Assembly (NCBI GenBank): GCA_905250025.1
Contig: CAJNOJ010000247.1
Span: 89,158-153,157 of the forward strand
Reading direction: 5' to 3'
DNA from: Adineta ricciae
Lineage: Eukaryota; Rotifera; Eurotatoria; Adinetida; Adinetidae
DNA: 64,000 nucleotides
The notes under the pieces are model-generated. The model saw nothing but the letters and a program-made list of their open reading frames with translations. It ran no database searches and was not told where the DNA came from. Below are positions 1,068-54,579 of this stretch, one piece after another. Numbering within the stretch: position 1 is the first letter of the stretch; every line of letters begins with the position of its first letter. Both the position numbers and the translations under genes were made by a program.

Positions 1068-2643
1068 TTAATACCAATTGGCCAGTAAGACTCCAACATT
1101 GTCGCTACCTAGGTTTGTTACGACAATATCGGATTTACTATCGAAATTAATGTCAGCCACAAACAATGAAAACGGCTGTGAGCCAACTGCAAAGGTTTGC
1201 TGGGAAAGAAATGTGCCATTGCCGGTGTTCAGGAAAATTCCAACGTTGTTTGTGCCACGATTTACGGCAATAATATCAAGTTTTCCATCGTTATTCATGT
1301 CATTGACAAATACACAATACGGACTCGAACCACTTCCAGTTGAATAAGTTATTTGAGAACGAAATGTTCCATTACCATAGCTAAATAGAACGCCTACATT
1401 GCGATTGCCACTATTTGCGACAATAATATCAAACTTTCCATCGCTGTTCATGTCTTCAACAAACACAGAATACGGTTTCGAATTACCTCCAGTCGAATAA
1501 GATACTTGAGAACGAAACGTACCATTGCCATAGTTGATAAAAACGCCAACATTACCATCACCGTAATTTCCAACAATAATATCTGGCTTATCATCTCCAT
1601 TGACGTCCAGTATATACGCGCTTTGTGGTTTAGAACCAGTTGAATATAATATTTGAGGACGAAACGTACCATTTCCAAAATTAAGCAACACACCGATATT
1701 ATCAGTACCAAAATTGACAACGACAATATCGGGCTTCTGGTCATTGTTAATATCAGAGACTGACACACACGCCGGATATGAACTACTTCCAGTTGAATAT
1801 GTTGACGAAAAAATAAATGTACCATTACCAATGTTAAAGAAAACACCAACATTATCAGCTCCTTGATTTGCAACAATAATATCGGGCGTGTTGTCACCAT
1901 TAACATCAGTCACCGACAAAGAATTAGGATTGGAAATGTACCCAGTTGCAGATATATAATTTATTGGGGAACGAAATGTACCAGTTCCGGTATTCAAGAA
2001 AATGCCAATCGTATCAGATCCAAAGTTTCCAACAATGATGTCCAAGTTATTGTCTTGATTGACATCAGCGACAAAAACAGGTGCCGGATATGAACTAATT
2101 CCCGTTGGATACGCAACTTGCAGCGAAAATGTCAAATTAAATTGAGCTATCGCAGAAGAGAGTATGTCATTCTCGAAAAGACTTATTTGTCAATGCAAAT
2201 CAGTTACCTGCGGTGGTCGACGTCGTCTGAGTCGTAGTTGTTGTTGATGTTGATCCTTGGAACAAAAGAGAAGAATATTGTATTGCTGCGGTTGTCACAA
2301 CTGATTGGGATATATATGTGTTGAACTTACTATCGGATTGGAAACTTTGTATTAGTATTGATGTTCGATTGATAAACTTGAAAGTACAGCGAACATTTGA
2401 TGTTATCCAAATCGAAGTAGAGTTATAACTGAATAGTTGACAAGTCTGATTCATGTGAAAATAATTTAAAGCAACAGTAAGTGATTGGTTTAATGTTAAC
2501 AATAATGCACATGTGCATTGCTCGAGAGTTACATTAACCAATGTTGTATTGATTGTGGCAACCATTGTATTATTTTCCATTTTACCAATATAAACAGATT
2601 GTACAATAGAAAATAATGATAAAATAACGATTATGCAGAACAT
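1068..2643 (-). CDS. Secreted seven-repeat FG-GAP/VCBS beta-propeller protein
   Basis: Two exons, 2208-2643 and 1068-2146, are joined across a 61-bp intron (donor CAG|GTAAC, acceptor ATAG|CT, phase 1). Exon 1 encodes a signal peptide (MFCIIVILSLFSIVQS), a domain of about 100 residues with paired cysteines (CTC...NQTCQLF...RCTF), and a Thr-rich linker. Exon 2 encodes seven FG-GAP/VCBS repeats of about 48 residues, each with a DxNxDxxxDI Ca-binding-type loop and an NxGNGTF turn, so the propeller is complete. It is probably secreted or on the cell surface and binds a ligand or matrix; the ligand is unknown. C2 holds only the start of a near-identical copy (9458-9767). The start is the only Met that gives a signal peptide. 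No disruption is visible. Confidence 0.85.
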
Positions 2644-9147: not shown

Positions 9148-9456
9148 CTACGCACAAGCTTGGATCAAAATGACTACTCGAGTAAAGTACGAATTTAGTA
9201 CAATAAAATCTAATCTATTGTCACCATTGAAATCACCCGTGATTAATCCAAAGGGTGAGCCAGGACTTCCGATTGAAAATATCAATGGCGATGAGAACAC
9301 GCTTTCACCAATACCAAACCGAAGATCCAATTGATTTTTATAATTAAGAACCACTGCAAGATCTGCATAGCCATCATTGTTAAAATCCACAGCAACTAAT
9401 GAATTGGGCGCACTATACGCTCCGGTTGAATATGCGGTGTGTTGCGCAAAAGTGCC
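9148..9456 (-). CDS. 3' end of large membrane/propeller gene, copy B
   Basis: This encodes the last two FG-GAP repeats and the true C terminus (ending VVILIQACA, TAG at 9148-9150) of the gene whose remainder lies at 35288-41149. The last 182 bases, 9275-9456, are identical to 35288-35469, while copy A (23708-24715) differs there at several positions. It is cut by the n at 9457. This is the only place in the window that shows the stop codon and 3' flank of this gene. Confidence 0.85.
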   Translation of the reverse strand, partial: GTFAQHTAYSTGAYSAPNSLVAVDFNNDGYADLAVVLNYKNQLDLRFGIGESVFSSPLIFSIGSPGSPFGLITGDFNGDNRLDFIVLNSYFTRVVILIQACA

Positions 9457-15684: not shown

Positions 15685-17241
15685 TCAAAGGTGAACTAAA
15701 TCAAATCGTTGAATGCGATGATTTCGATAATCACCAACATAAAGATTTCTTTCACCATCAAATGATAAACCAAAAGGATAAAACAATTGATTTGGTTCAT
15801 TTCCTTCTCCATTTCCACCAACAGTTATTTCACCTTCTTCATCTCCTTCACACCATCGCATTATTCGATGGTTCACATAATCTGCAACATAAATTCGACC
15901 CTCATGATCAACAGTGACTCCTCGAGGATGACTCAATTGATTCAGATTCTCTCCTTTTCCATTTCCACCAGCAACAACAATTCCTTCCTGCGCATCTTTT
16001 CTCCATTTCATCACGCGATGGTTTTCCACATCTGAAACATAAAGAGATTGTTCATCATCGACAAACAGAAAAGTTGGACATTTGAACTGATTGAGTTGAT
16101 CTCCTTTTCCATTTCCACCAGCAACCACTCGTCCTTCACCCTTTTCTCCTATTTTCCATCTTCTCACTTCATCTTTCCCCCAATCAGAGACATAAACAAA
16201 TCCAAATTTATCCATTGTTAACCGCCAACAGCTAATATTGTCAATGAGAATCTCCGACTGATTTGTGTTCAAAAACCATCGCATTACTCTTCGATTTTCA
16301 CAATCCGCGATGATGATCGAATTATTTTGTTCATCAAAAATTACATCCGTTGGCTCATTCAATTGATTCAAACTGTTTCCTCTTCCATTTCCACCAGCCA
16401 CAATTGTTCCTTGATTTTCGTTTCTTTTCCATCGAACAATTCGATGATTCCCCAAATCCGCAATAAAAATATTTTGAAGTTTGTCGATAAATATTCCAAC
16501 AGGATCTGAAAGTTGATTTAATTTGTCTCCTTTTCCATTTCCTCCACAGATTGTCGATCCACTTTGTTTCCATTTCCTCAAAATTAATTCTAAACAAAGA
16601 AAAACGAATTCTTTTTTCATTAAGATTAACGCTTTTTCCTACAAAGACGTTAGCAAAGAAACATCTGAAAAGTCTTTTCCAAATCGAAATCGATTTAATT
16701 TTAACTATTGAAAAGAATATTCAAATAAAAATGAATTCAAATTGATTTTGAAAGAAAAGGAAAAGATATTCATTTGTTGATTTGATTAAAATGAGGAACG
16801 AATTGACGATTTCGTTAAATAAAGATCGTCAAACTTCACTCAATTTCAACAATTTTCATTTCGATAAAATCAAAATGAAACTTTTCTTCGTTAATTTTCT
16901 TTTTCTCTAAAAACCCAAAACTTCTTCTTCATCTTTCATCAAAATTCAATTCAATGTCAAATTTCTCACGAATTCTCTCAAAATAAACTCATCTAATCAT
17001 TTGAGATTATTCGAATCTACAAAAAATTTTCTATTTTTCTTTCAAATTTCGAGGTTTTCTCGAGATTTATTTAAATTAGAACTTTCTTTCAAATCAATTT
17101 TCATTCCCTTGGAAATCTTCACAATTCTCTTATCTTTGAAATCGTTCACATACTTTGAGCAACTGTTTTCAAAAGTTTTTCGACGAATATTTGTGAATTT
17201 TCGTTTGAATTCATTTCCAGTAGATTTTCCGAATGTTTTTT
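15685..17241 (-). CDS. B-box/coiled-coil/NHL-repeat protein, copy 1, partial
   Basis: The terminal exon 15685-16620 encodes about six NHL repeats, each with the cassette GGNGxGxxLNQLxxP, VDDxxxLYVSDxxNHRVMKW, forming a propeller. Upstream on the same strand, 17241-17040 encodes part of the coiled coil seen in copy 2 (FKRKFTNIRRKTFENS). The contig ends there at the n, so the B-box is lost. The 16621-17040 stretch between them is AT-rich and must hold intron(s). B-box-NHL proteins of this kind are numerous in bdelloids; TRIM-NHL relatives act in protein or RNA binding. No RING is present. The NHL exon has no disruption. Confidence 0.75.
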
Positions 17242-19677: not shown

Positions 19678-21625
19678 TCAAAGGTGAACTAAATCAAATC
19701 GTTGAATTCGATGATTTCCACGATCACCAACATAAAGATTTCCTTCACCATCAAATAATAAACCGACAGGATAAGACAATTGATTAGGTCCATTTCCTTT
19801 TCCACTTCCACCAACAATTATTTCACCTTCTTCATCTCCTTCACACCATCGCACTATTCGATGATTCGCAAAATCCGCAACATAAATTCGACCCCCATGA
19901 TCAACAATGATTCCTTCAGGACCATCCAATTGATTCAGATTCTCTCCTCTTCCATTTCCACCAGCAACAACAATTCCTTCCTGCGCATCTTTTCTCCATT
20001 TCATCACACGATCATTTCCCCGATCTGAAACATAAAGAGATTGTTCGTCATCGACAAACAGAACAGTTGGAACGTTGAACTGATTGAGTTGATCTCCTTT
20101 TCCATTTCCACCAGCAACTAATGTTCCTTCACCCTTTTCTCCCATTTTCCATCTTCTCACTTCATCTTTCCCCCCATCTGAAACATAAACAAATCCGAAT
20201 TCATCCATTGTTAACCGACAACAGTCGATATTGTGAATAAGAATCTCCGACTGATTTGTGTTCAAAAACCAACGCATTACTCTTCGATTTCCACAATCAG
20301 CAATGATGATTGAATTATTTTGTTCATCAAAAATCACACCTGTTGGTCGATCCAATTGATTCAAACTGTTTCCTCCTCCATTTCCACCAGCCACTATTGT
20401 TCCTCGATTTTCATTTCTTTTCAATCGAACAATTCGATGATTCCCCGAATCCGCAATAAAAATATTTTGATGTTTGTCGATAAATATTCCTTCAGGATCT
20501 GAAAGTTGATTTAATTCTTCTCCTTCTCCATTTCCTCCACATATTGTCGATCCATTTTGTCTCCATTTCCCCAAAATTAATTCTAAATAAAGAAAAACGA
20601 ATTCTATTTTCATTAAGATTGACACTTTTTCCTACAAAGACTTTTGCAATGAAATATCTCAAAAGTTTTTTCCAAATCGAAATTGTATTAATTTCAACTA
20701 TTGAAAAGAATATTCAAATAAAAACGAATTCAAAATGTTTTGAAAGAAAAGGACAAGACTTTCATTTGTTGATTTAATTAAAATGAGAAACAAATTGACG
20801 ATTTCGTTAAATAAAGATCGTCAAATTTCACTCGATTTCAACAATTTTCGTTTCGATGAAATCAAAATGAAACTTTTCTTCTTCATCTTTCATCGTCTCA
20901 TCAAAACTCAATTCAATGTCAAATTCATCAAATCTGAAAAAGAACGAATTTCTCGCGAATTCTCTCAAAATAAACTCATCTAATCCTTTGAAATTATTCG
21001 AATCTACAAAGAATTTTTGTATTTTTCTTTCAAATTTCGAGGTTTTCTCGAGATTTATTCCAATGAGAATTTTTCTTCAAATCAATTTTCATTCCCTTCG
21101 AAATCGTTCACATACTTTGAATAACTCTTTTCGAGAGTTTTTCGATGAATATTTGTGAATTTTCCTTTGAATTCATTTCCAGTTGATTTTCCGAATGTTT
21201 TTTCATTTCCATTAATTGATCTTTGAAATAATTCAAATCAAATTCATTAAATTCATTTTCTTTTTGAACTTTTTTCATTTTTTCTGTTATTTCATCAAAT
21301 TTTCTCTTTAATTTATCGAGATCTGCTCTTCCTTTTTCGATTAAAATATTTCGATATTGTTGAGCTGTTTGTTGAATTAATATTCGATCGATTTCTTTTC
21401 CCATTGATCAATTTGTTTCATCGAGGAAGAAACGGATTGTTTTTGATTGATTTGGTCTTTAAATTGATCATAATCATTGATAATCGTGTTGAAATCTTCA
21501 TTTAAACTTTGCAGATGTTCATTTAAATGTAATAAACAAAACTCTTTTGAACAACCTGAACAAGAATAAATGATTTTGTCTTTGTTACAAACGAAACATT
21601 GTTTTTTGTTATTTGCCATTGCCAT
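19678..21625 (-). CDS. B-box/coiled-coil/NHL-repeat protein, copy 2, with frame break
   Basis: Reading 5' to 3': 21625-21390 encodes a B-box-type zinc finger (CFVCNKDKIIYSCSGC, FCLLHLNEHLQ) and a coiled coil to QIDQWEKKSIEY. 21404-21108 continues the coiled coil in another frame (IQQTAQQYRN, KLKRKFDEITEKMKKVQKE). 20625-19678 encodes the NHL propeller with GGNGxGxxLNQL cassettes. The two coiled-coil frames meet at 21390-21375 without room for an intron; relatives read ...KSIEKIQQTAQQ. A short insertion near TATTA explains the shift, so this copy may be a recent pseudogene. 20626-21107 is AT-rich and must contain intron(s). Confidence 0.65.
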
Positions 21626-23706: not shown

Positions 23707-23707
23707 N
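23707..23707. other. Assembly join C3/C4
   Basis: Right of the n the last exon of the membrane/propeller gene starts in mid-repeat (GDFNGDN). Copy B shows 22 more codons and a stop (9148-9216). The left flank does not encode them. Confidence 0.85.
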
Positions 23708-26700
23708 TATTGTCACCATTGAAATCGCCCGTGATTAATCCAAAGGGTGAGCCAGGACTTCCGATTGAAAATATCAATGGCGATGAGAACACGCTTTCAC
23801 CAATACCAAACCGAAGATCCAATTGATTTTTATAATTAAGAACCACTGCAAGATCTGCATAGCCATCATTGTTAAAATCCACAGGAACTAATGAATTGGG
23901 TGCACTATATGCTCCGGTTGAATATGCGGTGTGTTGCGCAAAAGTACCATTTTTCTGAATAAAAAGATTTACGATATCAGAATCCCCTAATGCAATGGCT
24001 AAATCCGGTTGATTATCACTGTTAAAATCAGCTACAGCGAGTGACTTTTCGCTATTATAGGCGTTTGCCATTGTAATTGTCTGTAGTCGAAAATATCCGT
24101 AACCATTGTTAATTAAGATGTGCAGACGATTGTCGAACGTGCTAACGGTGGCGAGATCGAGATAATTATCGTTATTCAAATCAGCGACTACAAATGAGTC
24201 TTCATACGATACATCGTTAGAATAGAGGAATGATATACCGCTGAAAAATCCATTACCAAAATTAGACAATATACCCAGAAAGGCCCCATTAACAACAATG
24301 TCTAAATAAGTATCGCCATTGAAGTCAGCAACTGCAATTAAGGTTGGTTGATATATGGATGCAACTGAAATTGTCTGTTGTATCTGAAATATTCCCTCAC
24401 CATTGCCAATCAAAATGATGATTGTACTAGAAGAATAAGCGGCAACAGCGAGATCTATTTGGTAATCGCTGTTAAAATCGCCACAGGCAATAGAAACAAT
24501 GTAATAACTTGTGTCGATAATATGTATCGATGAGATTGAAAATGTTTCATCATTGTTATTCAGAAATACGCTGAGATTGCCCGAATAAGCATCAACAAGA
24601 GCAATATCTAAATAACTATCACCATTAAAATCTCCCGTAGTAATAGCATTGTGCGTTGAATTCGAGTTGGATGTGTACAGAGTTGATTGTTGAAATGTTA
24701 ATTTGCAGGATGATTCTAACAAGAATGTAGAGCGAGGTTATCACAATGCTGATGCCGTATAACACTAACCTGTTGAAGATGTTGTCGTCATCAATACTGT
24801 TGTACTGGTCGTTGTCTCCGCAATAGTTGTCAGTAAAACTTTAGTACAAATACAAATATTCAGAATATTTAAAATGAATTCGAGAAGAAACGATTGAATA
24901 CCTGACGGTATTGTGTGAGCTGCATTTATACGTTTATTCAAATAGATAGAAACAATTACCAATGCTGCTATTGAACCCATGAACAGAATTAATCCAAGAA
25001 TGATATAACGACACATTACCGATGTGAATTGTCTCCTACAAGCAAACATCATTGAAAGATATGAGAAATATAAATAGACTGTACGGTGATGTTGAAGTTG
25101 AAGAAACTCCGTTTGGATCGAGATTGTGTACATGATTCTCTCCCAGTGTCGATTGAGGGATCACATCGACAGCGTTTTTCTGTTTTCGAGAATATCTATA
25201 GAGTTGATGGGAGAGAATGATTATTTTTGGACATAACCATTGTAAAGCCAGTGTTAAACCACCGATATAGCCGATTAAAACAGTGACAGTATAAAGCCAG
25301 TCGAATCTCTGTCGATATGTATATGAACAAGAACTAGGTGAACATTGTTGAAAATATACAGAATAGTTTATGGATGTTATCCACTTCTCTATGAAGACAT
25401 TTGTGACTAAATCTAGAACAGTTGAATCCATTGAATATTGGCTATTGTTTGTGGAGAGGATTGAGATTTTAACCGTGCTATCGCTATTATTTGTATACTG
25501 CAGAATAAGATCCAGACATGATGAATTATAGAAGCATTCCAGGGTTGACGACAGAAACGCTTCACTAGGCGTACAGCCTATTTTCAAACCTTTGATTGGT
25601 ACGATTTTCAATGAATCCGGTGCAACGAATCCAGCTTGAACAGTACAGTTCATGTGCAATGCACAGGAACATTCATCAGCATAGACTATTGATTGAGTAA
25701 TGGCTGGAGAATAAGATTCATTCACCCAAGGATCAATATACTCAAAATTTGTTCCATAAGATGATATAATAGCATTGCCGTAATTGACTGCCCGAAGAAG
25801 GGACAGACGAGTTACAAAGGAATTGGGAGCGTTTAATTGACTACTGTTGACAAGCGTATGGATGGATGTGTCAAGTATACTTGCTGGTATGAGTTGATCG
25901 GTTAGAAAAAATGATTCAAGAAACTGAGTGATATAGCTATTCACGGATTGCATTGCCTCAGAACACAATCCTGATAGAAGTTGCAAATGCGAGGATAGAA
26001 AACGACGATAATCTCGAGTGTCATAGACGAATAAATCTGGAGCCAAACTTGACGTAATGTTCATGTACCATCCCTCGGAAACGAAGAGACTCGAGCATAT
26101 CTAAAACAGATACATTGCGTGGTATAAACCAAAATGATAATAATCTAGTCTCTTACTGGATGAAAAATAGGTTGAATTTGAACGAAGTTATTGTATTTCG
26201 ATGCGACTGACGAGCAACGGCATTGCAGAGTATCACCGTGTTCGAGTAGAAGACTTTTGTAGACATCGATATCTGGTCTATCAATTGTTATTTTTATTGT
26301 TCGTAATTGCAGAACATAGTAAAATGCCAAGACGCCAGAAGTGACGATCAGCAGAACGATGTAAAGTCTCGTTGATAATTGCCCAAAATACCTCGCTTTT
26401 CTGTCAGTGATACGTCCACCAAAAATTCGTCTTGGGAAAAAATTTAGATTTATCAACGTAGATCCTATCAGTCTAATTAGTCTAGCTGTGATCGTTTTCA
26501 CTTGACTGAACAGTTTCGGTGAATCTATATGATAGGGAATACTCAACGGTTCATCTGTTATGGCGAATATGGATATGCAAACATTGATTACCTCGAGATG
26601 TTAGCTGTCTTTGTGACGTGTTTGATGGTTGTTTGCTCTTCAACAAATTGATGATCAACCTGATTAGTGATGGCGTAACTAATCGTAGAATAACAATAAT

Positions 26701-29631
26701 ACCGCCGATTGTTGCTAGCATTCTTATCATTATGTCGATTAAGCTACTCCTACGCACTTCTTGAGAGTAAATGCATCTGCTTGGTGCACATTCCTTATAA
26801 TAATCTTCGAATGAAAATGTTGGGTTCCACTCTTCGATCATTAATTCTTTGATTATCAGTGAAAGTGAGGTATTGGGAGGAAATCGACTGGATGTTGAAT
26901 TATATATAAGAAGACTAGCATCGATATACCGAAGACCTACGTTAATGACGTCCACTGTGGCGTTTATGTACTTGTACAGAATAGACACGCACGAATGAGA
27001 ATAGTAACATTCTAGCGTTGACAGCAGTACAGAATTCAAAGTAAAGCAACTAGTGATCATTCCTACAGCTTCAGAAAAGCCCGGAACATTGTATAGAGTA
27101 GTTGTATTTATAGGATCACGAACTGGAGTTTGGCAGCGAGGATCTGTAGCGCAGATACACACTACTTGCTGCGTTTCGATGTTCCTTGGACCAGTAAAGT
27201 TGAATCCAAGCTAAATCAAAGATATTTAATTCAACCGTAACTCTCATCATGCCACTATACCTTGGAAATTTCTCTGTGATTGCTTTCATCGTGCGTTGCC
27301 AAATCGACTAGATCAGCATTGTTACCCATTGTGTAAGGTTGATCAGCTTGTGTGAACAGCTGAATAATCCTGAGAAGAAGATAAAAGTCATCACCGAACG
27401 ACTGAGTGTATTCGTGCACAATTATATCTAATTGAGTATTAAAAATATCTTCACTGGTGACATTCAGTGTGACGAAGGTTTGAATACCAAATCGATGAAC
27501 AGCATCTGTGACAGTTTTATTTGCCAGTTGGCATAAAGTTGACAGCAAACGGAAATGTTGACCTGTGAAACCATTCCAAGCGAAGAGACGGTATCCAAAA
27601 TAGAGTACATTAGTAGTATATGACAATAATGGAATCCACGTCTCACTAACAAAATCGCTTGTACACAACGAATGAAGTCTTGGCGCCCAAGCGACGAATG
27701 TTTGATATGGTACAACAGTGTTTGAACAAGAGCATTTCAGGGAATTGGAATGTGATTGTTGTAGTCTTCTGTATTCTCTTAACAAAGGTTTCAATACAGG
27801 TATATCTACTATCTGTACATCGATAGATGTGTGTACCAGAAGCACACACACGGCACCTTGAATGAGATACAGTGATATAACTATGAGTAAAACCAACAAG
27901 ATATAGATAATCATACTCGCAAGTAAAATCAAGTAAATCCGCGTGATCATGCGCTGTAGTTTGACATCTCCTTCGGTTCGTCTACTGATTGATTTAAACA
28001 AGTTGAGTCGTCCTAACTTGTCCATGCATTTCTTTATAGCCATCAATTGATTTTCTAGAAATAGAGTTCGTTTGAATTTAGAGTATATTCTTTTCTTATA
28101 TAGTTTTCGAGGATTACTTAGATTGCGATTGTGATTGGTCGAACTGAGCTTGAGCTTTAGCAAAAGGAAAACTAAGTAAGGTGTGATTGAGCGAAGCAAA
28201 ATGGTGACACCTCCATAGAGGGCAAGTAAGAGAGTACCAGTGTATAAAACATTCATGTGGCTGATAATCGAATACGTACATGTTTTTGGAGCGCATGAAG
28301 TAAAGTATACAGTATAGTTGATCACAGATGACCAATTTGCTACGAATAATTCAGATAAAATATCTCCGACAGGTATCTGTTTCCGTGTTGAAGATGGCAG
28401 ACCATCAGACCAAGAAATATTTGTCTAAATCATGACGAGAATTGATTTTTTAAACAATTATTCAAATACTCATACCTGATTAAGATTTGGAAAATAACTG
28501 GGAAAGTTTTTCAGACAGCTGACGCTATATAGGCATTCAAGTGTACTGACAAGTAAACCATCAAGTGGAGTACATCCAGCAAAGAATCCATCTACTGTTG
28601 CATTAGTACTTGGACTGAAAGAGGGTGGATTGATTGGCCATGTAGAATGTTTTATTGCACTCTCATATTGTGGTAATGAATAAAAACCGGCCGGTACTGT
28701 TGATCTTACTAGATCGCACGTTTGACCGATATTGTTGGCTGTGCGACTGCTATTTTCGTTGAATGCACGGGTAGATGATGGTACTATGCGAGAAACTTGC
28801 CCATTGATTTTACTCACTGAAATATAGGCATTTGTATTAAGAGCAGAAACGACAAAGTTTGATTGTGTTGTTATTTGTAAGAGACTAACGATAATACCTT
28901 TTTGAAGGAAAATACTGTTTTTAATTAGATCAATAGTGGCCACTATTTGAAACTGAACTTGGTCTTCTGGAAACAGTTCAGAAGTCACAAATTGTTCATT
29001 TTCCACGTCAACGAGAGATTGAAAAACTGTTTCTTGAGAGATGGAACAAAATGCAGCGAGAAGTTCAAACTACAATAGAAATTTACGCTCATTTATTCTC
29101 AAGCGCATTGTCTTACTTGAGATTTCGCAGTTGTTCGAAAATCCATCACTAGCAATGAGCTGGCATAGGACAGATAAAGCGCTTGAATCCACTCTTTGCT
29201 CACATAAGTACTCGAACACACCGGGTGAAAGGAGATCATGTGTGATACAAATTTTCCATACGGCATAGCAATAGTTGAACATGGGCATGACAGTGTATCG
29301 GCATGATCGCGATAGAGCTCATTGAAAAACACTGGTGTTATGTCTGAAACGCTGATCGATTGATTTTGTGGACTAACGACGGCAACAAACGTTAGGATGT
29401 ACAGGGTAACTAAACTTTCATATACAAATGAATCATTTTATGAATGCTAAACTTACTGATAAGAAGAGGAATATATAATCGAGTAGAATATAGTTGATGT
29501 TTCAGAGTAACTGCGGGATCGACTGGTTCGTCACTGTCATCATTATCGTTATAATCATCTTCGTCAGGTAAGAAGATATTGTAATCATAGACATGCTCAA
29601 GTAACCAAATGAATAAATTCTTGATATTCAT
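23708..29631 (-). CDS. Large three-module membrane protein with FG-GAP propeller, copy A
   Basis: Ten exons join in frame: 29631-29457, 29409-29117, 29069-28476, 28424-27261, 27210-26592, 26524-26157, 26100-25085, 25035-24902, 24838-24770, 24715-23708, with GT-AG introns of 47-67 bp. They give 1,813 codons; copy B adds the last 22. An acidic cytoplasmic N terminus (DEDDYNDNDDSDE) is followed by seven hydrophobic segments near residues 52-70, 412-442, 515-538, 904-930, 1000-1022, 1345-1372 and 1417-1442. Three ectodomains lie between TM1-2, 3-4 and 5-6. Each begins with LxCxCS...FVS..W, has a middle LxSTLEC.Y..SC and ends Y..C[AS]P..C.Y before a glycine-bearing TM. A Thr-rich linker leads to seven FG-GAP repeats. 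The topology recalls repeated two-TM channel subunits. The start is the first ATG of exon 1; an upstream exon is possible. Confidence 0.8.
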
Positions 29632-35287: not shown

Positions 35288-38200
35288 GAAAATATCAATG
35301 GCGATGAGAACACGCTTTCACCAATACCAAACCGAAGATCCAATTGATTTTTATAATTAAGAACCACTGCAAGATCTGCATAGCCATCATTGTTAAAATC
35401 CACAGCAACTAATGAATTGGGCGCACTATACGCTCCGGTTGAATATGCGGTGTGTTGCGCAAAAGTGCCATTCTTCTGAATAAAAAGATTCACGATATTA
35501 GAATCCTTTATTGCAATGGCTAAATCCGGTTGATTATCACTGTTAAAATCAGCTACAGCGAGTGACTTGTCGCTACTATAGGCGTTTGCCATTGTAATTG
35601 TCTGTAGTCGAAAATATCCGTAGCCATTGTTAATCAAGATGTGCAGACGATTGTCGAACTCGCCAACGATGACGAGATCAAGATAATTATCGTTATTCAA
35701 ATCAGCGACTACAAATGAGTCTTCATACGATACATCGTTAGAATAGAGGAATGATACATCGCTGAAAAATCCATTACCAAAACCAGACAATATACCCAGA
35801 AAGTCCCCATTGACAACAATGTCTAAATAAGTATCGCCATTGAAGTCAGCAACTACAATTGAGGTTGGTTCAGAGATGGATGCAACTGAAATTGTCTGTT
35901 GTATCTGAAATATTCCCTCACCATTGCCAATCAAAATGATGATTGTACTAAAAGAACGAACGGCAACAGCGAGATCTATTCGGTAATCGCTGTTAAAATC
36001 TCCAGAAGCAATAGAAACAATGTAATCACTTGTGTTGATAATATGTATCGATGATATTGAAAATGTTTCATCATTGTTATTCAGAAATACGCTGAGATTA
36101 CCCGAATAAGCATCAACAAGAGCAATATCTAGATAACTATCACCATTAAAATCTCCCGTAGTAATAGCATTGTGCGTTGAATTCGAGTTGGATGTGTACA
36201 GAGTTGATTGTTGAAATGTTAATTTGCAGGATGATTCTAACAAGAATGTAGAGTGAGGTCATGAGAATGCTGATGCCGTATCACACTAACCTGTTGAAGA
36301 TATTGTCGTCATCAATACTGTCGTACTGGTCGTTGTCTCAATAGTTGTCAGTAAAACTTAAGTACAAATACAAATATTCAGAATATTGTAAATGAATTCG
36401 AGAGGACATGATTGAATACCTGACGGTGTTGTGTGAAGCGTATTTATACGTTCATTCAAATAGATAGAAACAATTACCAGTGCTGCTATTGAACCCATGA
36501 ACAGAATTAATCCAAGAATGATATAACGACACATGGTCGATGTGAATTGTCGCCTACAAGCAAACATCATTGAAATATATGAGAAATATAAATAGACTGT
36601 ACGGTGATGTTGAAGTTGAAGAAACTCCGCTTAGATCGAGATTGTGTATATGGTTTTCTCCCAATGTCAATTGAGGGATCACATGGACAGTGTTTTTCTG
36701 TTTTCGAGAATATCTATAGAGTTGATTGGAGAGAATGATCATTTTTGGACATAACCATTGTAAAGTCAGTGTTAAACCACCGATATAGCCGATTAAAACA
36801 GTGACAGTATAAAGCCAGTCGAATCTCTGTTGATATGTATATGAACAAGAACTAGGTGAACATTGTTGAAAATATATAGAGTAGTTTATGGATGTTATCC
36901 ACTTCTCTATGAAGACATTTGTGATTAAATCTAGAATAGATGAATCCATTGAATATTGGCTATTGTTTGTGGAGAGGATTGAGATTTCAATCGTGTTATC
37001 GCTATTATTCGTATACTGCAGAATAAGATCCAGACATGATGAATTATAGAAGCATTCCAGTGTTGACGACAGAAACGCTTCACTAGGTGTACAGCCCATT
37101 TTCAAACCTTTGATTGGTACGATTTTCAATGAGTCTGGTGCAACGAATCCAGCTTGAACAGTACAATTCATACTCAATGCACAGGAACATTCATCAGCAT
37201 AGACTATTGATTGAGTAATGGCTGCAGAATAAGATTCATTCACCCAAGGATCAATATACTCAAAATTTGTTCCATAAGATGATATAATAGCATTGCCGTA
37301 ATTGACAGCCCGAAGAAGGGATAGACGAGTTACAAAAGAATTGGGAGCGTTTAATTGACTACTATTGACAAGCGTATGGATGGATGTGTTAAGTGTACTT
37401 GCTGGTACGAGTTGATCGGTTAGAAAAAATGATTCAAGAAACTGAGTGATATAGCTATTCACGGATTGCATTGCCTCAGAACACAATCCTGATAGAAGTT
37501 GCAAATGGGAGGATAGAAAACGACGATAATCGCGAGTGTCATAGATAAATAAATCTGGAGCCAAACTTGACGTAATGTTCATGTACCATTCCTCGGAAAC
37601 GAAGAGGCTTGAGCATATCTAAAACAGATACATTACGTGGTATAAACTAAAATGATAATCATCTAGTCTCTTACTGGATGAAAAATAGGTTGAATTTGAA
37701 CGAAGTTATTGTATTTCGATGAGACTGACGAGCAACGACATTGCAAAGTATCACCGTGTTCGAGTAGAAGACTTTTGTAGGCATCGATATCTGGTCTATC
37801 AATTGTTACTTTTATTGTTCGTAATTGGAGAACGTAGTAAAATGCCAAGACACCAGAAGTGACGATCAGCAGAACGATGTAAAGTCTCGTTGATAATTGC
37901 CCAAAATACCTCGCTTTTCTGTCAGTGATACGTCCACCAAAAATTCGTCTTGGGAAAATATTTAGATTTATCAACGTAGATCCCATCAGTCTAACTAGTC
38001 TAGTTGTGATCGTTTTCACCCGACTGAACAGTTTCGGTGAATCTATATGAAGGGAAAAGCCAACGGTTCATCTGTTATGGCGAATATGGATATGCAAACA
38101 TTGATTACCTCGAGATGTTAGCTGTCTTTGTGACGTGTTTGATGGTTGTTTGTTCTTCCACAAATTGATGATCAACCTGATTAGTAGCGGTGTAGCTAAT

Positions 38201-41149
38201 CGTAGAATAACAATAACACCGCCGATTGTTGCTATCACTCTTATCATTATGTCGATTAAGCTACTCGTACGCACTTCTTGAGAGTAAATGCATCTGCTCG
38301 GTGCACATTCCTGATAATAATCTTCGAATGAAAATGTTGGGTTCCACTCTTCGATCATTAACTCTTTGATTATCAGTGAAAGTAAGGTGTTGGGTGGAAA
38401 TCGGCTGGATGTTGAATTATATACAAGAAGACTAGCATCGATATACCGAAGATCTAGATCAATGACGTCCACTGTGGCGTTTATGTACTTGTACAGAATA
38501 GACACGCACGAATCAGAATAGTAACATTCTAGCGTTGACAGCAATACAGAATTCAAAGTAAAGCAACTATTGATCATTCCTACAACTTCAGAAAAGCCCG
38601 GAACCTTGTATAGAGTAGTTGTATTTATAGGATCACGAACTGGAGTTTGGCAGCGAGGATCTGTAGCGCAGATACATACTACTTGCTGCGTTTCGGTGTT
38701 CATTGGACCAGTAAAGTTGAATCCAAGCTAAATCAAAGATATTTAATTCAACCATAACTCTCATCATGCCACTATACCTTGGAAATTTCTCTGTGATTGC
38801 TTTCATCGTGCGTTGCCAAACCGACTAGATTAGCATTGTTACCCATTGTGTAAGGTTGATCAGCTTGTGTGAACAGTTGAATAGTCTTGAGAAGAAGATA
38901 AAAATCAGCACCGAACGACTGAGTGTACTCGTGCACAGTTATATCTAATTGAATATTGAAAATATCTTCACTGGTGACATTCAGTGTGACGAAGGTTTGA
39001 ATACCAAATCGATGAACGGCATCTGTGATAGTTTTGTTTGCCAGTTGGCATAAAATTGACAGCAAACGGAAATGTTGACTTGTGAAACCATTCCAAGCGA
39101 AGAAACGGTATCCAAAATAGAGTACATTAGTCACCTATGAAAGTAATGAAATCCACGTCTCACTAACAAAATCGCTTGTACACAACGAATGAAGTCTTGG
39201 CGCCCAAGCGACGAATGTTTGATATGGTACAGCAGTGTTTGAACAAGAGCATTTTAGAGAATTGGAATGTGATTGTTGTAGTCGCCTGTATTCTCTCAAC
39301 AAAGGTTTCAGTACAGGTATATCAACCATCTGCACATCGATAGATGTGTGTACTAGAAGCACACACACGGCACCTTGAATGAGATTTAAGTGATATAACT
39401 ATGAGTAAAACCAACAAGATATAGATAATCATACTCGCAAGTAAAATCAAGTAAATCCGCGTGATCACGCGTTGTAATTTGACATCTTCTTCGGTTCGTC
39501 TATTGATTGATTTAAACAAGTTGAGTCGTCCTAACTTGCCCATGCATTTCTTTATAGCCATCAATTGATTTTCTAGAAATAGAGTTCGTTTGAATTTAGA
39601 GTATATTCTTTTTTTATATAGTTTTCGAGTATTACTTAGATTGCGATTGTGATTGGTCGAACTGCGCTTGAGCTTTAGCAAAAGAAAAACTAAGTAAGGT
39701 GTGATTGAGCGAAGCAGAATGGTGACACCTCCATAGAGGGCAAGTAAGAGAACACCAGCGTATAAAACATTCATGTGGCTGATAATTGTATACGTACATG
39801 TTTTTGGAGCGCATGAAGTAAAGTATACAGTATAGTTGATCACAGACGACCAATTTGCTACGAATAATTCAGATAAAATATCTCCGACAGGTATCTGTTT
39901 CCGATTTGAAGATGGCAGACCATCAGACCAAGAAATATTCGTCTAAATCATGACAAGAATTGATTTTTGAAACAATTATTCAAAGATTCATACCTGGTTA
40001 AGATTTGGAAAATAACTGGAAAAGTTTTTCAGACAGCTGACACTGTATAAGCAGTCAAGTGTACTGACAAGTAAACCATCAAGTGGAGTACATCCAGCAA
40101 AGAATCCATCTACTGTTGCATTAGTACTTGGACTGAAAGAGGGTGGATTGATTGGCCATGTCGAATGTTCTATCGCACTCTCATACTGTGGTAGTGAATA
40201 AATACCGGCGGGTACTGTTGATTTTACTAGATCACACGTTTGACCGATACTATTGGCTGTGCGACTGCTATTTTCGTTGAATGCATGGGTAGATGATGGT
40301 ATTATGCGAAAAACTTGCCCATTAATTTTATTCACTGCAATATAGGCATTTGTATTAAGAGCAGAAACGAGAAAGTTTGAGTGTGTTGTTATTTGTAAGA
40401 GACTAACGATAATACCATTTTGAAGGAAAATACTGTTTTTAATTAGATCAATAGTGGCCACTATTTGAGACTGAACTTGGTCTTCAGGAAACAGTTCAGA
40501 AGTCACAAATTGTTCATTTTCCACGTCAACGAGAGATTGAAAAACTGTTTCTTGAGAGATGGAACAAAATGCAGCGAGAAGTTCAAACTACAATAGAAAT
40601 TTACGCTCATTTATTCTCAAGTGCATTGCCTTACTTGAGATTTCGCAGTTGTTCGAAAATCCATCACTAGCAATGAGCTGGCATAGGACAAATAAAGTGC
40701 TTGAATCCACTCTTTGCTCACATAAGTACTTGAACACACCGGGTGAAAGGAGATCATGTGTGATACAATTTTTCCATACGGCACAGCAATAGTTGAACAT
40801 GGGCATGACAGTGTATCGGCATGATCGCGATAGAGCTCATTAAAAAGTACTGGTGTTATGTCTGAAACGCTGATCGATTGATTTTGTGGACTAACGACGG
40901 CAACAAACGTTAGGATGTACAGGGTGACTAAACTTTCATATACAAACAAATCATTTTATGAATGCTAAAGTTACTGATAAGAAGAGGGATATATAATCGA
41001 GTAGAATATAGTTGATGTTTCAGAGTAACTGCAGGATCGACTGGTTCGTCACTGTCATCATTATCATTATAATCATCTTCGTCAGGTAAGAAGACATTGT
41101 AACCATAGATATGCTCAAGTAACCAAATGAATAAATTCTTGATATTCAT
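35288..41149 (-). pseudogene. Large three-module membrane protein with FG-GAP propeller, copy B, disrupted
   Basis: Same ten-exon structure as copy A: 41149-40975, 40927-40635, 40587-39994, 39942-38778, 38727-38109, 38042-37675, 37618-36603, 36553-36420, 36356-36291, 36236-35288; the 3' end is at 9148-9456. Splice sites and exon lengths match A except exon 9 (3 bp shorter, in frame) and exon 4 (1 bp longer). Exon 4 has a TAG at 39135-39137, where A has Tyr (LLSYTTN). It also has a one-base insertion near 39386-39390 (ACTTAAATC against ACTGTATC in A), which shifts the frame after VISL. Both fall between TM3 and the second ectodomain. Everything downstream is intact, so loss looks recent. Sequencing error at two sites is less likely but not excluded. 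Confidence 0.75.
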
Positions 41150-42072
41150 TTCGAAAAACTTGTAGAAAATCGTAGTAGCGATCACGAATTCTTCCCAAAA
41201 TGGTTATGATAAAAATGACTTTGCATCCAAACAAAAATGTCTAAATCGTTTCGTTGCCTCTTCGTATATACGCAGGGAAGAAACTGCTGAGTGACAAATA
41301 AAAAGTCAGGGAGTAGTCAGCATCTTATACAATGTGCATTTGACGAGTTCTATAAGTGAAACTCATGACAATCAAACCTTGAAAATAGTGAGTATGTGAT
41401 ATGAAACGTATATAAGATCTCGTTTCCTAGATTTGTTTGCCTGTTGGAGAGAGGAAGAAGTCTAACCGTTAATTTAAGAAAACTTATTATTTCAATTTGC
41501 ACTCATCTGTTGGAGAGGGAAATTTTGAAAAACAATGATTTCGCAAGAATTGAATCACTTTAATACAGCGTTCCAGTGAGGAAAGTAATACGTCATCTTA
41601 CACTCTGTGACATCAAAATTTCTGTTTTCGACTCGATTCTATTCATTTTTCATCAAAAATTTAACGAAAGTCTTGATCATGATTGTTTGTAACTTGCAAT
41701 TTTGATAAAATCTCAAAAAGTCATTGACAAGCTTTCTTCATAAACAGTAGTTAGACAATTACTAATTGTCTTGACGTGTTGTCATGAAATTCGTGGTAAA
41801 ATAAGGTAGGAAATGAATTTTGTTAAACAATTTTTGTTGCTAAATAACCGTCCTATGATAGTTGAAAACAAATTTGAATAGATTAGAAAGTATTCATTTG
41901 CTATCATGGACTAGGATTTCGTTAATGAACTGCCAGAAATGGTTTTTTTATATTCAAAATATTTCTTTTTCATTCTTTAACATTACATGATCCGAAAAAG
42001 AATCGTTTGGAGAGGTTTTATTATTTGAATAAAATAAAAACACAAAACGAGCTCTGAAACAGCACTCTAAAG
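41150..42072. other. Upstream region of membrane/propeller gene, copy B
   Basis: Collinear with 29632-30551; no gene is recognised. Confidence 0.55.
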
Positions 42073-43895
42073 TCAAATGTTGCCTGCAGCGAGTTTCTGC
42101 AAAAACTCTGGATTGAGACCGATAAGTCCACAATCATATAGATCACGAGAAATGCCATTGCAATTTGTAGTATCGAAACCCTGATCTGAGCCTAAACACT
42201 CAGGACCATAGTGGCCGTCGCAACCGGTACTACATATGTGATATTCTTTGTGAAAGGAGCAGTAATTGCCCGTTGTTGATCGGATTTGTATATCTTCTGA
42301 TTTAACAGAGTACACTACAATGTAAACCGGTTGCGCAACCACATTGTTGTAAGATAAGATATATTCGACCGGACTGATATAATAATCGCGACTAAAATTG
42401 GCAGTGTCATGTTTAAACATGGTCAACAACGTAGGAATAGATGCGATAGAACTACTACCCAGCCGAAATCGTTTGTATTTTTCTTTGCTGAAGGCAATCC
42501 CACGATTTAGCTGACCATTATTGTACATCTTACAGTAGTTCCATTGTACATTTGAGATTGTGAACTTCCATTATAAGTGTGGCAAGCAAAGCTTCGAGGG
42601 GCCAAATAAGTTGCCTCTCCCCAACATCGATAAGAATAGGTATCCCTACGTACCGAGTCCTTTCGAAATCCGTGCAAAATAATTTGACAGAGACTTGCAT
42701 TGACCATTTCGACAATTGGATGAAGTTCCATGCCATCCAATACATTCTTGCGTCGCATATTTCGGATTTGACCGAACGAATTGTTGGTATCTTGATTCTA
42801 AGGATGCATGGTGGATTTTATAAATTTCTTATACTCGTACTTTTTGTCGATACTCGTTTGGCCAACCGTTTATAACCTCTCTTTCTACCGTTCCAAATTC
42901 TAGAGTTGTTCTTGACAGCAGTTGTGTCAATAGAGTATCTTAAATGAAATATTTAACGATTAAAAAATAAGATCTTTAAAGAATATCGTGACCGCACTCA
43001 AGCTGCTTGAACAAAATGACTGTTCAGCTAGAAGATGTTTTAATTCAGCAAATGTTGGTCGGTCTTTTGGCGCTTTAGCCCACATTTTACAAACAACTGA
43101 CCAGCAATCATCACTGCAGTTAGATGGCTTTGGTAATAGTTCGCCATTTAGAACACGTCGAACAACTTCATCATCATTACTTATTTTCGACCAGGGGATT
43201 ATACCTCGATTATAAGCTTCCCACATCAAGATTCCCATTGAATAAACATCCGATTTCTCTGTGTAATCATCAGATGTCATATGTTTTGAAAGTATTTCTG
43301 GTGCAACACAACGTACAGGAATAATATTGAGAGTCGTTTTGAACTATGTCGACTTAATTCGAAATCGGTTACCTTGACTACAATATTCTTTAGATTGTTT
43401 TCATCAAAGCAAAAAAACCAAGATATTCCGATAGGCTAAATCCGCATGAACAACATTGTTAAAAGCAAGAAAAATCATCGCATCGACTATTTGTAAGAAT
43501 ATTTCGATGAGAATCTTTTCCTTCGGTGATTCGAGTTGATCCTGCAGAAAATCGAACAGACTTCCTAACGGTGCATGTTCTTGTAAGAGCATAATCGAAT
43601 TGTTTTCATAGACAAGACCGTATGTTCTAACAATGTGTGGATGTCGACTCAGATCTTCGTTTAACGTCAACATTAAGAGTATACTGTTACGTTTTGCTTT
43701 CATTGAATTTTCGAATTGATCGATCACTGTTTTCATCGCATAATTTGGATAGAAGCGTTCTAATGGTAACGGTTGATCAGTGAGTGTACTTCGCCCATTC
43801 TTTTTAATCCATTCTACAATTGTTTCTCTCTCATAGGTGTGGCCATCTTCGGCTACAACGATATCCCGGAATAATTCTAGAGTAATTGGACACAA
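42073..43895 (-). pseudogene. U-box/tyrosine-kinase-like/PARP fusion, copy B, decayed
   Basis: 43895-43404 encodes a complete U-box ([37 protein letters not shown]), then runs straight into HPHIVRTYGLVYENN. The kinase N-lobe retained in part by copy A is therefore missing. The catalytic loop reads HADLAYRN (HRDLAARN type). A T-run shifts the frame at NILVF, VTDFELSR shows DFE for DFG, and a further shift precedes APEIL. The C-lobe is open to 42998. A 58-bp intron in the same phase as copy A leads to 42938-42073, the PARP domain. There a TAA replaces the Glu of RVEEIY, and a 23-bp insertion near 42630-42652 shifts the frame. The PARP tail (VVAQPVYIVVYSV, CSTGCDGHYG) is preserved here but not in A. 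Confidence 0.65.
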
Positions 43896-44836
43896 GAGTG
43901 AATCGTGACTGATGTTTGTTTTTAGTTTTTGTTCTTACGCGACTTCGATCATCGATAGAAAACAAAATGAAAACAACTAAATACATATGTCGACGACTTG
44001 AGCTGCAATTAGATGTAAAATAACACCAATCTGTGCCTTTCCCACTGATGTCGTATGTCGACAAATGAACAGAATCTCTACTGAGAAGTATGAGAGTATG
44101 GGTAAGCGTTTTCGAACTAGAAATCGATTCACACTAGTGAATCCTTCGACAGCTTAGATTTAGAGAAAAACGTCTCAATATCCATCGATATCACTAATCG
44201 ATTCTACTCTTCACTATTGAACACACAGGAAACATACAGCGCTATCATTTGCGTATTCTTAACAATCATTTCGATTTTTCCCTTACGCATATTTGTCATC
44301 GAAATAACTCGAGCAGAAATCATAAATACTGAATTGCTCTTCTCCACTTTCACGGAAAGCGATTTCTAGACGATATTAATAGTTATTAATAGGTGGTTAT
44401 TTCGCTGAAACCGCTCACATCAAATAAAGAATGGAAAAATTTTCATGTAATGGCTTCACCATGCGCATGTAAATAGAAAAGAGTCGTTAAGAGAAGACAC
44501 ATGAATCAAACCATCGAAAGTGTTATGTCAACAGGATTTTTCGTCGACGAAATCTTTTGATGACATGTCCATATAAAAGGATAAGAGAAGATGCTGATTA
44601 GAATATTGACAGCGTATTCGTTTTTGCGTCTTTTTTTCTGAGTAGCGACCTGTACAGTTTGCACTTGGAGTTTCATCCAGCAGAGTGCTACTTTCAGAAT
44701 AAAAAAAGTGCTTGATCATTGTTTCATTCTCTCTCTCTGTTTGATGAAGACATGTGACAACATTCTGTTCACAGCTTATAAAAGTAAACTTTAACTGATT
44801 TTTGCATTTAGAAAACGAAAGAAAAATACATATATC
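43896..44836. other. Divergent intergenic region before calpain, copy B
   Basis: Collinear with 32056-32998; TATAAAAG at 44777-44784. No gene is seen. Confidence 0.5.
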
Positions 44837-47161: not shown

Positions 47162-47229
47162 TGATTCGTTGATTTCTGTATCTGTATCAAGAGAGACGAA
47201 AAATTCGCTTTTATCTTTTTTTCCTAGTC

Positions 47230-48480
47230 ATGTTATCCAAACTGTTCTTGAGAAATCCCCAAATTTATATATTACCAGGTGTTACTCCGAAAACCATCGA
47301 AACTTGTTCTCGTTTTCTGCAAGACAATCACGAAAAACATCATATTTTTTTCAATGAGGATGGCTTTCATAATCATACGACGCATCATCTCTTAGCCGCT
47401 CTAGGTCTTGGTGCTTCATGCGAAACACTCGAACGTATTTACGAACAAAAGAAGAAAATTCTACAGCCGATCCCTCCGCTTCACGATCGAAAAGATTTCG
47501 ATGCAAAGAAATGTTTAGGAGATGAAACTTATTATCCTGATTATGTCAAATTTTTTACCGAAAAATTGGAAAATGATAAATATCAAGGAAATATCCAAGC
47601 TTTGATCGAAGATTATTTCTTTAATGACGATTACTTAACTTTAGCATTGGGTGGTGCCTATCATTCACTCATTCACCTTGGATATGCATTGGAGTTTCAA
47701 TCGAAGTTAATGGCCATTGAAGGATTAGCTATGGCAGCCGTTGATAGTGTCGGTGTTCAAGGTGTTTTAAAATACATGGACTATGGTCACACTCCAGCAA
47801 ATCCTAAAACAGCATTGGAAATTGTTGAATTAATTACTAAAGATCAACGATTTGATGATAAGCTTTCTTATAACGATAAGGGAGTTAAACTTTCGAAACT
47901 TCTAGAACGTAATGCTGGCCCATTAGTTGCTGAATATGCACAGATGTGGAAATGTGATGTGGACGATCTTCGACGCGCTGATATTTTAGTCATGGCTGCT
48001 GCTATACGAGAAAAGAAAGAAGTCCATTTGGATTTTTTTCTTATGCATGCAACAACAAGTTCATTATTTTTAAACATATTCGTTCACGCATTTCAAAATC
48101 CGGAAAATCAAACGAAATTCTTAAAAGCAAAATTTGCAGTTGATCTTCTTCAATTCGTTGCACGCGGACGGCCGAAACTAAATGTGAACTATTTACTTAA
48201 TGAACATCAAATTTCCAAAGAACATCAATATGCTGATGTATCGAATCCGTGGTTGCCTTTGATTAATAAGTGTTTGACACATCACGATGAACATGTACCG
48301 AAAACAATACGTGCTTTGGTTTATGCTGAAAAGTTCGATCAAGCACAAGGAAAAGATCAAATATCGTATTTGAAAATTGCACAAGTAGTCATGGACGCCT
48401 TGTTTCCAGAGAAGGACAAGGATTGGGTTCACGAAGGTATCGGCTGGGAAGAATTTTGGAGTAAAGTCAAAGATTTATAG
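47230..48480 (+). CDS. Questin-oxidase-like protein, copy B
   Basis: An intronless 416-residue frame. The start carries LPGVTPKTIET, and then FLQDNHEKHHIFFNEDGFHNHTTHHLLAALGLGAS, the conserved opening of the questin oxidase-like family (AflY type, formerly DUF4243), is recognisable in pieces. GGAYHSLIHLGYALE and the helical tail with EEFWSKVKDL fit its all-alpha fold. In fungi these enzymes carry out Baeyer-Villiger-type ring opening of anthraquinones; in an animal the substrate is unknown. The intronless structure and family distribution suggest horizontal acquisition. Both copies are intact with few differences, so it is under constraint. Confidence 0.75.
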   Translation: MLSKLFLRNPQIYILPGVTPKTIETCSRFLQDNHEKHHIFFNEDGFHNHTTHHLLAALGLGASCETLERIYEQKKKILQPIPPLHDRKDFDAKKCLGDETYYPDYVKFFTEKLENDKYQGNIQALIEDYFFNDDYLTLALGGAYHSLIHLGYALEFQSKLMAIEGLAMAAVDSVGVQGVLKYMDYGHTPANPKTALEIVELITKDQRFDDKLSYNDKGVKLSKLLERNAGPLVAEYAQMWKCDVDDLRRADILVMAAAIREKKEVHLDFFLMHATTSSLFLNIFVHAFQNPENQTKFLKAKFAVDLLQFVARGRPKLNVNYLLNEHQISKEHQYADVSNPWLPLINKCLTHHDEHVPKTIRALVYAEKFDQAQGKDQISYLKIAQVVMDALFPEKDKDWVHEGIGWEEFWSKVKDL

Positions 48481-50954: not shown

Positions 50955-51300
50955 AACAGTAATTTTTTTAAAAATTTTTGTTATTCAAGCATATTAATAA
51001 AGCTGAAGTTAGTCGTTGACGAAAGTGTTTTTGGTCATTCAAGCAAATCTTGAGGGTATGTCTGATACGTTGAAGTCGAGGATGTTTGCAGGGAACAAAC
51101 TGTGGGAACGGTATGAAATGGACAATGGAATTTATAATCAATGCTAGCTAAAAGCATTCTGAGTACACATACTTCATGCAAAAGAGCTTATTTCAAATAA
51201 ACTTCTCGTATCTCTGATAAGACTATCTTAAGTGGAAATATAAGCGATGAAGTTTTATGAGTATTGCTTTCAAAAACTGTAATTCACCCGTAGGAACGAA
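50955..51300. other. Spacer with poly(A) signal
   Basis: AATAAA at 50996-51001. Collinear with 48481-48850 apart from small gaps (about 25 bp shorter). No gene is seen. Confidence 0.5.
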
Positions 51301-54300: not shown

Positions 54301-54579
54301 AAATCTCATGGGAGTCTATTATCTTATGATCGAGATAACTATGAATTGACATACTGTACGTCAACAAGTACTTCACAATCGTCGTTTGTAACAAAGTATA
54401 TTAGTATGGAAAAAGTGATCTCAACCGATTCGACATCTTCTGCTTGGATACGAACAGGATATATTATTAGTATGACGAATGACAGAAGTGTTGATGATTT
54501 CGCCAATCATATTCTGGAAAATATTTTTGTAGCGGAAGGAGATAAACTACGTCAACAATTATCAAAATTGAACACTTAG
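51301..54579 (+). CDS. Membrane-anchored GMC oxidoreductase-PNK3P-SRPBCC fusion, copy A
   Basis: One uninterrupted frame of 1,092 residues. Residues 22-45 form a membrane anchor. A GMC flavoprotein domain follows (about 80-620): GCGTSG at 87-92, GLGGTSRIYGM, a catalytic-region HPTCSCRMG near 564, and CDASSFGSQIDANPSATIYAMAE at its end. Residues about 650-780 are a PNK3P/HAD-type domain: AAFDLEGTLIHT, KIVIFTDQAN and DDYRTPRVAMW. In the DxDGT motif the second Asp is Glu. From about 800 comes an SRPBCC/polyketide-cyclase-like domain (TVRISNTAEVVWKLIGGF, WHPQI), then a second helical-beta region with SELWKHID that may be a degenerate second copy. GMC enzymes oxidise alcohols or sugars; the combination with the others is not one I know. 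Confidence 0.85.
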   Translation: MRQQSNTSISSDVKKCNRLILGVTIMLAFVLISLTVTTLIFVVKIDKRESTLQLEPLTTTPTTIEQENTTFVLPITDRTAYHFIVVGCGTSGAVLASRLSENPHFRVICIEKGPRDLPNEAEWSAMKIPNDFNFISPHDPVIITTRQQSLNKLVYIPRSMGLGGTSRIYGMINARASPDMLKEWPEGWQYEHFLPYYKKLEDHYCHHMLTNISTEDCELYHGKSGPMQVNSLDSLLFHNVSQAFREICYDTNQPWNGYSTDYNGDLINRPHSCSMFEQFKYRPSGTSSWFRGSSKTGYLTTEVLKRPNLSIVVDSTVTRIIFDDTARAIGVEYYDTSSHTVKRITALYEVILAAGAFATPHLLQVSGIGDPDHLQTINVSLVANNTHVGKYLADHISLPYIVQLHDCDETFNDMNGPFSWLVQFNSGVRTNQSKNIRDIQIYVLDASDGRFTHASRFCSEIKADRCGVSKPGTIATLRITLQNTDFSSGTVKAPTNSIFDKPEIDLNWTKLSDNDRNTFLMAVHLLRSYTLNKSSEFGQLIAGEILPGPLTFDEYFKFMESALHPTCSCRMGFCTDKELLVRGTTSLRVCDASSFGSQIDANPSATIYAMAEMLSDKLKRQYTSQHRVGTWKTRQSMLVFESDGIVSCSKIAAFDLEGTLIHTNPNNVSNWYLFNSFVRSRLQHLHSDGYKIVIFTDQANVTSKLEFQLQWQSKIEMIATALKVPIQLFSSTTNDDYRTPRVAMWRDFTWLFNDGINIDYKASFYVSKYRRENFSDVHIQFAANIPLAYYSSDQQFTNASSYPTVRHFNIIQTVRISNTAEVVWKLIGGFFSIHKWHPQISACEKVDDPQQLFVKRRLVFFGQIIETIEQLQVLDNYKREYQYKNIGGRWGKAVQNYASKLSVMEDDNGRSVIVSWSASFDSQTDIVTTFYRTGLDALVELLSSPLMCSSYTGNNFKEKLFSRKDQANPSIYWRQEYNINASELWKHIDTQNRVLNDQLPKSHGSLLSYDRDNYELTYCTSTSTSQSSFVTKYISMEKVISTDSTSSAWIRTGYIISMTNDRSVDDFANHILENIFVAEGDKLRQQLSKLNT

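Follow-up and report, generated by a model that had tools for sequence, protein, structure and literature searches.

Three tandem two-pass modules followed by an FG-GAP propeller in a large family of predicted bdelloid rotifer membrane proteins

In a 64,000-nt stretch of an Adineta ricciae contig (hereafter the window), we found a minus-strand gene at 23708..29631 whose protein carries three copies of a two-transmembrane (2-TM) module of ~390 residues in one chain, followed by a seventh transmembrane segment (TM7) and an FG-GAP propeller. The modules are separated by short basic loops, which are predicted to be cytosolic, and the propeller is predicted to lie outside the cell. As far as sequence can tell, this architecture and topology are well supported. 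We propose, with about even confidence, that the protein belongs to a large family of bdelloid cell-surface receptors in which a three-part membrane body would bear the propeller as a recognition head.

The strand and span of this spliced gene were already given by the first-pass annotation and were borne out. That annotation had read ten short-intron exons in phase into about 1,836 residues, and our own chaining of open frames through GT-AG introns first gave a similar ten-exon model. The spliced, in-phase gene stood, but the exon number did not. Comparison with deposited proteins gave 12 exons (29631-29457, 29409-29117, 29069-28476, 28424-28118, 28054-27917, 27856-27261, 27210-26592, 26524-26157, 26100-25085, 25035-24902, 24838-24770 and 24715-23708, the last one cut) and 11 introns of 47-67 nt, after the removal of two in-phase introns that had been read through. 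One of them, 63 nt long (28117-28055), is missing from the deposited proteins P0001 and P0002 (our handles); the other, a 60-nt intron inside TM3 (27916-27857), is missing from P0001, P0002 and P0003. One acceptor was also moved: following the deposited model, the intron that begins at 26591 now ends at 26525. P0001, from A. ricciae, corresponds to the locus 29631-23708 itself and so places the window in this species, in agreement with P0121, which is 100% identical to another locus (L023). It has the same residues as our corrected model with two exceptions: it retains a 63-nt intron (24901-24839), which is spliced out in P0002, P0008 and P0009, and its six C-terminal residues differ.

The gene does not end at 23708. 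Position 23707 is a single N, an apparent scaffold joint, that interrupts the seventh blade of the propeller. The terminal part of the propeller exon is present again at 9148..9453 (minus strand), as recognized by identity, frame and stop, and this copy passes beyond the joint to a stop codon. Its segment 9216-9453 is 98% identical to 23708-23945, and its ending (...RVVILIQACA and stop) resembles the C-termini of relatives. Because the propeller exon continues to a stop in this copy, the seventh blade is probably real, and the protein, with the end taken from the copy, would therefore be ~1,794 aa long and not 1,836. A second copy of the gene lies at 35288..41149 (minus strand; ATG at 41149) with ~95% identical DNA; the block 23767-30688 matches 35288-42209 at 95% identity over 6.9 kb. 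This copy is probably the homologous haplotype. As assembled, it contains a single in-frame TAG in module 2 (39137-39135). The window has six single Ns (9457, 17242, 23707, 35287, 49323 and 58427), and several of them border blocks repeated within the window at 87-100% identity. It seems that the scaffold interleaves two homologous haplotypes, and the apparent tandem duplicates in the window may therefore be alleles. Two similar 317-aa frames (15688-16638 and 19681-20631, minus strand) flank a single N, and the first of them is an NHL-repeat propeller according to Pfam.

Other genes of the window were also recorded. A 373-aa FG-GAP propeller frame (1071-2189, minus strand; PF13517, E 5.8e-67) is possibly part of another propeller gene. 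At 51283-54576 (plus strand), a 1098-aa frame joins a GMC oxidoreductase, a PNK3P (polynucleotide kinase 3'-phosphatase) and a polyketide-cyclase-like domain, which is either an odd fusion or a read-through between neighbours. The frame at 43407-43934 (minus strand) has a U-box domain with a partial protein kinase domain immediately behind it. A questin-oxidase-like gene occurs at 47173-48477 (plus strand; PF14027, E 2.6e-74); as this family is known mainly from fungi, the gene was perhaps acquired horizontally.

Each of the three modules consists of two transmembrane segments around a cysteine-rich ectodomain, as located by motifs and family profiles. Module 1 (M1; aa 41-449; 28140..29511, minus strand) contains TM1 and TM2, module 2 (M2; about aa 485-894; 26632..27971, minus strand) TM3 and TM4, and module 3 (M3; about aa 950-1334; 25189..26399, minus strand) TM5 and TM6. 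The cysteine landmark motifs noticed in the first-pass annotation are each present three times, one set per module, and its glycine-containing second TM was confirmed as a Gly-Gly pair in the second TM of the modules. Their homology was confirmed as well. In BLASTP, M1 matched M3 at E 4e-46, M1 matched M2 at 6e-32 and M2 matched M3 at 2e-34, and when profiles of the M1, M2 and M3 families were made with the window protein, P0001 and P0002 left out, each matched both other modules (iE <= 8e-69). The ectodomains have even numbers of cysteines (10, 12 and 12) and contain 22 of 26 counted sequons, and the two inter-module loops are rich in K/R relative to D/E (12:3 and 15:2). These features fit a predicted topology with the N-terminus and the loops inside, the three ectodomains outside, and TM7 turning the propeller outward.

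We could not assign the module to any described family. At E <= 1, Pfam gave no match for M1, none for M2 (the query of which retained a 20-residue read-through intron) and two sub-threshold matches for M3. For 37 relatives, 25 of 55 families were listed, and these were at chance level except for FG-GAP in one relative. Four whole proteins (P0001, P0121, P0168 and P0172) yielded only FG-GAP and one sub-threshold match at E <= 0.1. PDB profile searches gave no convincing match to the module: they returned propellers, a match of E 0.89 inside the propeller stretch, one of E 0.34, or none. Foldseek against the PDB gave no match at E <= 0.001, either with three modules or with one. Our searches of an open-access library listed no paper on the module. 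We therefore rate the module as new, unless a distant relation to DEG/ENaC channels holds, and the earlier statement that no described family with this order is known is upheld as far as these searches reach. The passages on Adineta vaga in PMC3846280 place FG-GAP and NHL among the expanded multigene families of that species; they name the repeats, and the triple 2-TM module is absent from their description.

The models predicted by AlphaFold are nonetheless confident. For the three modules of the Rotaria protein P0172, AlphaFold2 gave a pLDDT of 83.7 and a pTM of 0.76 over 1177 residues; a pTM nearer one third would be expected if the three units lacked a defined relative placement. The modules are thus predicted to pack into one three-part membrane body. 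Trimeric 2-TM channels are three-fold, with one subunit per 2-TM unit, and the protein might accordingly be read as a single-chain concatenated trimeric ion channel, each module standing for one subunit and the propeller for a tethered sensor. We consider this reading rather unlikely, though it is a serious rival. Among such channels, ASIC has two TMs, a cysteine-rich ectodomain, GG in TM2 and three units per assembly. The resemblance of our module to the DEG/ENaC/ASIC family (PF00858) covers the two TMs per unit, the large cysteine-rich ectodomain, the Gly-Gly in TM2, the number of units (three per assembly there, three modules per chain here) and, in the predicted model, strands that join straight to TM1 and TM2. 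Judged from sequence only, three modules per chain would fit a three-fold DEG/ENaC trimer. P2X receptors and CDC50/TMEM30 proteins also have two TMs and a large disulfide-bonded ectodomain, and the module is like them in its two TMs and large ectodomain per unit.

The family profile ASC (PF00858) did not match M1, M2 or M3 of the window at E <= 1, was not among the 25 listed of the 55 families for the 37 relatives, and did not match whole P0001, P0121, P0168 or P0172 at E <= 0.1. DEG/ENaC/ASIC proteins carry a G-x-S selectivity motif in TM2, in the register following GG, and a His-Gly motif ahead of TM1. Among the GG-bearing modules of 84 proteins, G-x-S in this register was found in 0 of 69 M1, 0 of 69 M2 and 0 of 73 M3; anywhere in the last 48 residues, it occurred in 31, 11 and 23 of the 84 M1, M2 and M3, respectively. 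His-Gly within ~50 residues before TM1 was seen in 0, 2 and 2 of 84. Membership of the DEG/ENaC family, which these profile and motif searches test in part, was not supported.

Behind the modules, the claimed seventh TM was found by hydropathy (2.74) and segment statistics at aa 1378-1400 (24942..25010, minus strand), followed by a Thr/Ser-rich stalk. The propeller (23708..24713, minus strand; last blade cut by the N) was matched by PF13517 (FG-GAP_3) in seven stretches (E 1.6e-42) and has seven DxNxD motifs (aa 1465, 1516, 1567, 1615, 1666, 1716 and 1767). The propeller itself is thus confirmed, and its location outside the cell agrees with the first-pass annotation as a prediction from topology statistics. 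As for the seven blades claimed, all seven motifs are present, but within 23708..29631 the last blade is incomplete, and its remainder is found only in the copy at 9453-9148. Of the FG-GAP tails of relatives, 79 are 380 residues or longer, and 72 of these have a TM within their first 120 residues. The seven DxNxD Ca2+-loop motifs resemble those of FG-GAP propeller proteins such as CRTAC1 and integrin alpha; ITFG1 and FAM234 are also of this kind. Integrin alpha and ITFG1 are single-pass proteins, whereas here the propeller is preceded by six TMs in three modules and by TM7.

These propeller matches bear on another explanation, namely that the protein is a passive adhesion or coat protein, with the modules as a multi-pass anchor and the propeller as an adhesive head, without signalling. 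The best profile match of the propeller is a secreted esterase (8w20, E 1.2e-8), followed by CRTAC1 (9etn, E 1.1e-5) and, weakly, integrin alpha-V (E 0.013), and Pfam detected no signalling domain in whole P0001, P0121, P0168 and P0172. However, conservation is higher in the modules than in the propeller, which would be needless for an inert anchor. We compared 16 proteins that have all three modules in full and five or more blade motifs; among them are the window protein and P0001, which represent one locus. Mean pairwise identity was 0.45 for M1, 0.43 for M2 and 0.52 for M3, against 0.34 for the propeller. Of the 120 pairs, which are not independent, 97.5% showed lower conservation in the propeller than in any of the modules. 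Members without a propeller also exist among deposited models, which may be incomplete. We regard the adhesion explanation as decidedly unlikely. In the same 120 pairs, propeller identity correlated with module identity (r 0.94-0.97); head and body therefore seem to be inherited together. The tail nevertheless varies among members: it may be FG-GAP, NHL (as in P0033), both kinds (P0060), or absent from the deposited model.

The family is large and apparently unstudied. M3 alone gave 131 matches in the A. ricciae genome, forming 106 clusters (>2.5 kb apart) on 81 contigs, so that 106 loci is a lower bound. Protein searches returned 228, 57 and 322 matches; of the first and the last set, 120 each were listed, and the second was listed in full. 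All 296 of our protein entries, 295 from these searches plus our own translation of L023, have a module match. The species named among the matches listed all belong to Adineta (ricciae, steineri, vaga) or Rotaria (sordida, magnacalcarata, socialis, Silwood1, Silwood2), in word-based searches that are insensitive to distant relatives. The public records listed call these proteins 'uncharacterized', 'unnamed', 'hypothetical' or 'transmembrane', or name them for the NHL propeller. Among 140 N-terminally complete relatives (from P0001-P0176; candidate lengths ~714-2562 residues, so that single-module proteins lie outside the count), 129 have three modules, 11 have two and none has more, with fragments joined, which could mask an extra one, and partial modules included. 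Three near-complete modules were present in 84 proteins. Single-module records occur, and a number of them are marked partial. In A. vaga, the deposited P0174 has two modules and glycosyltransferase-2-type Pfam domains, a fusion or an annotation error.

In a tree of 84 modules, most clustered by position, including subfamilies that span Adineta and Rotaria; the exceptions were P0166 (M1 with M3) and P0171 (M1 with M2). This grouping suggests that the triplication predates the expansion of the family. Two adjacent single-module frames of L027 (2579-3880 and 4018-5406, minus strand) are 91% identical, which suggests that one module can serve as a duplication unit. In all four pairs computed, dN/dS was below 1: 0.39 for the two window copies (modules 0.365, propeller 0.534, one stop codon pair omitted), 0.29 between L021 and L026, 0.48 between both frames of L027, and 0.45 between L022 and L028, a distant pair (dS 0.87). 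That separate module genes and a propeller gene were joined by splicing assumptions is highly improbable, even with the 3' end on a scaffold joint and near-duplicate blocks interleaved in the window. L023 holds all three modules in a single uninterrupted 1330-aa frame (deposited within P0121 at 100% identity), which shows that splicing assumptions did not create the tandem order. In addition, P0001 is almost identical to our model, deposited proteins of Rotaria and of three Adineta species share the order, and modules mostly group by position.

We favour the receptor reading. The propeller would be a head that recognizes a ligand or partner and changes more quickly from paralog to paralog than the body does; its binding might be relayed to the membrane body. 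The family would then make up a recognition repertoire for self/non-self, microbes or surface chemistry. We infer this from the copy number, the divergence and the domain type; so many copies would be less expected of a housekeeping gene than of a recognition repertoire. On the other hand, relaxed constraint may be all that lies behind the faster change of the propeller, and the head is not constant, considering the deposited models, possibly incomplete, that lack a propeller or have NHL instead. The lack of a signalling domain in the four whole proteins scanned with Pfam and the in-frame TAG of the second window copy also speak against this reading. A bolder version, which we think improbable at present, is that an undescribed fold builds a pseudo-trimer from one chain, a three-fold, concatenated ligand-gated channel or receptor whose sensor is the tethered propeller; amplified in bdelloid rotifers to more than 100 loci, it would serve as a recognition repertoire.

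In a single bdelloid genome, 106 or more loci thus encode a module that found no Pfam family or solved fold in our searches. If the module is a distant DEG/ENaC relative, it is less new, and the architecture is still unusual. If the pseudo-trimer is true, a three-fold membrane assembly has been fused in a single chain. Given its size and a head that changes faster than the body, the family is a candidate for the means by which bdelloids diversify surface recognition.
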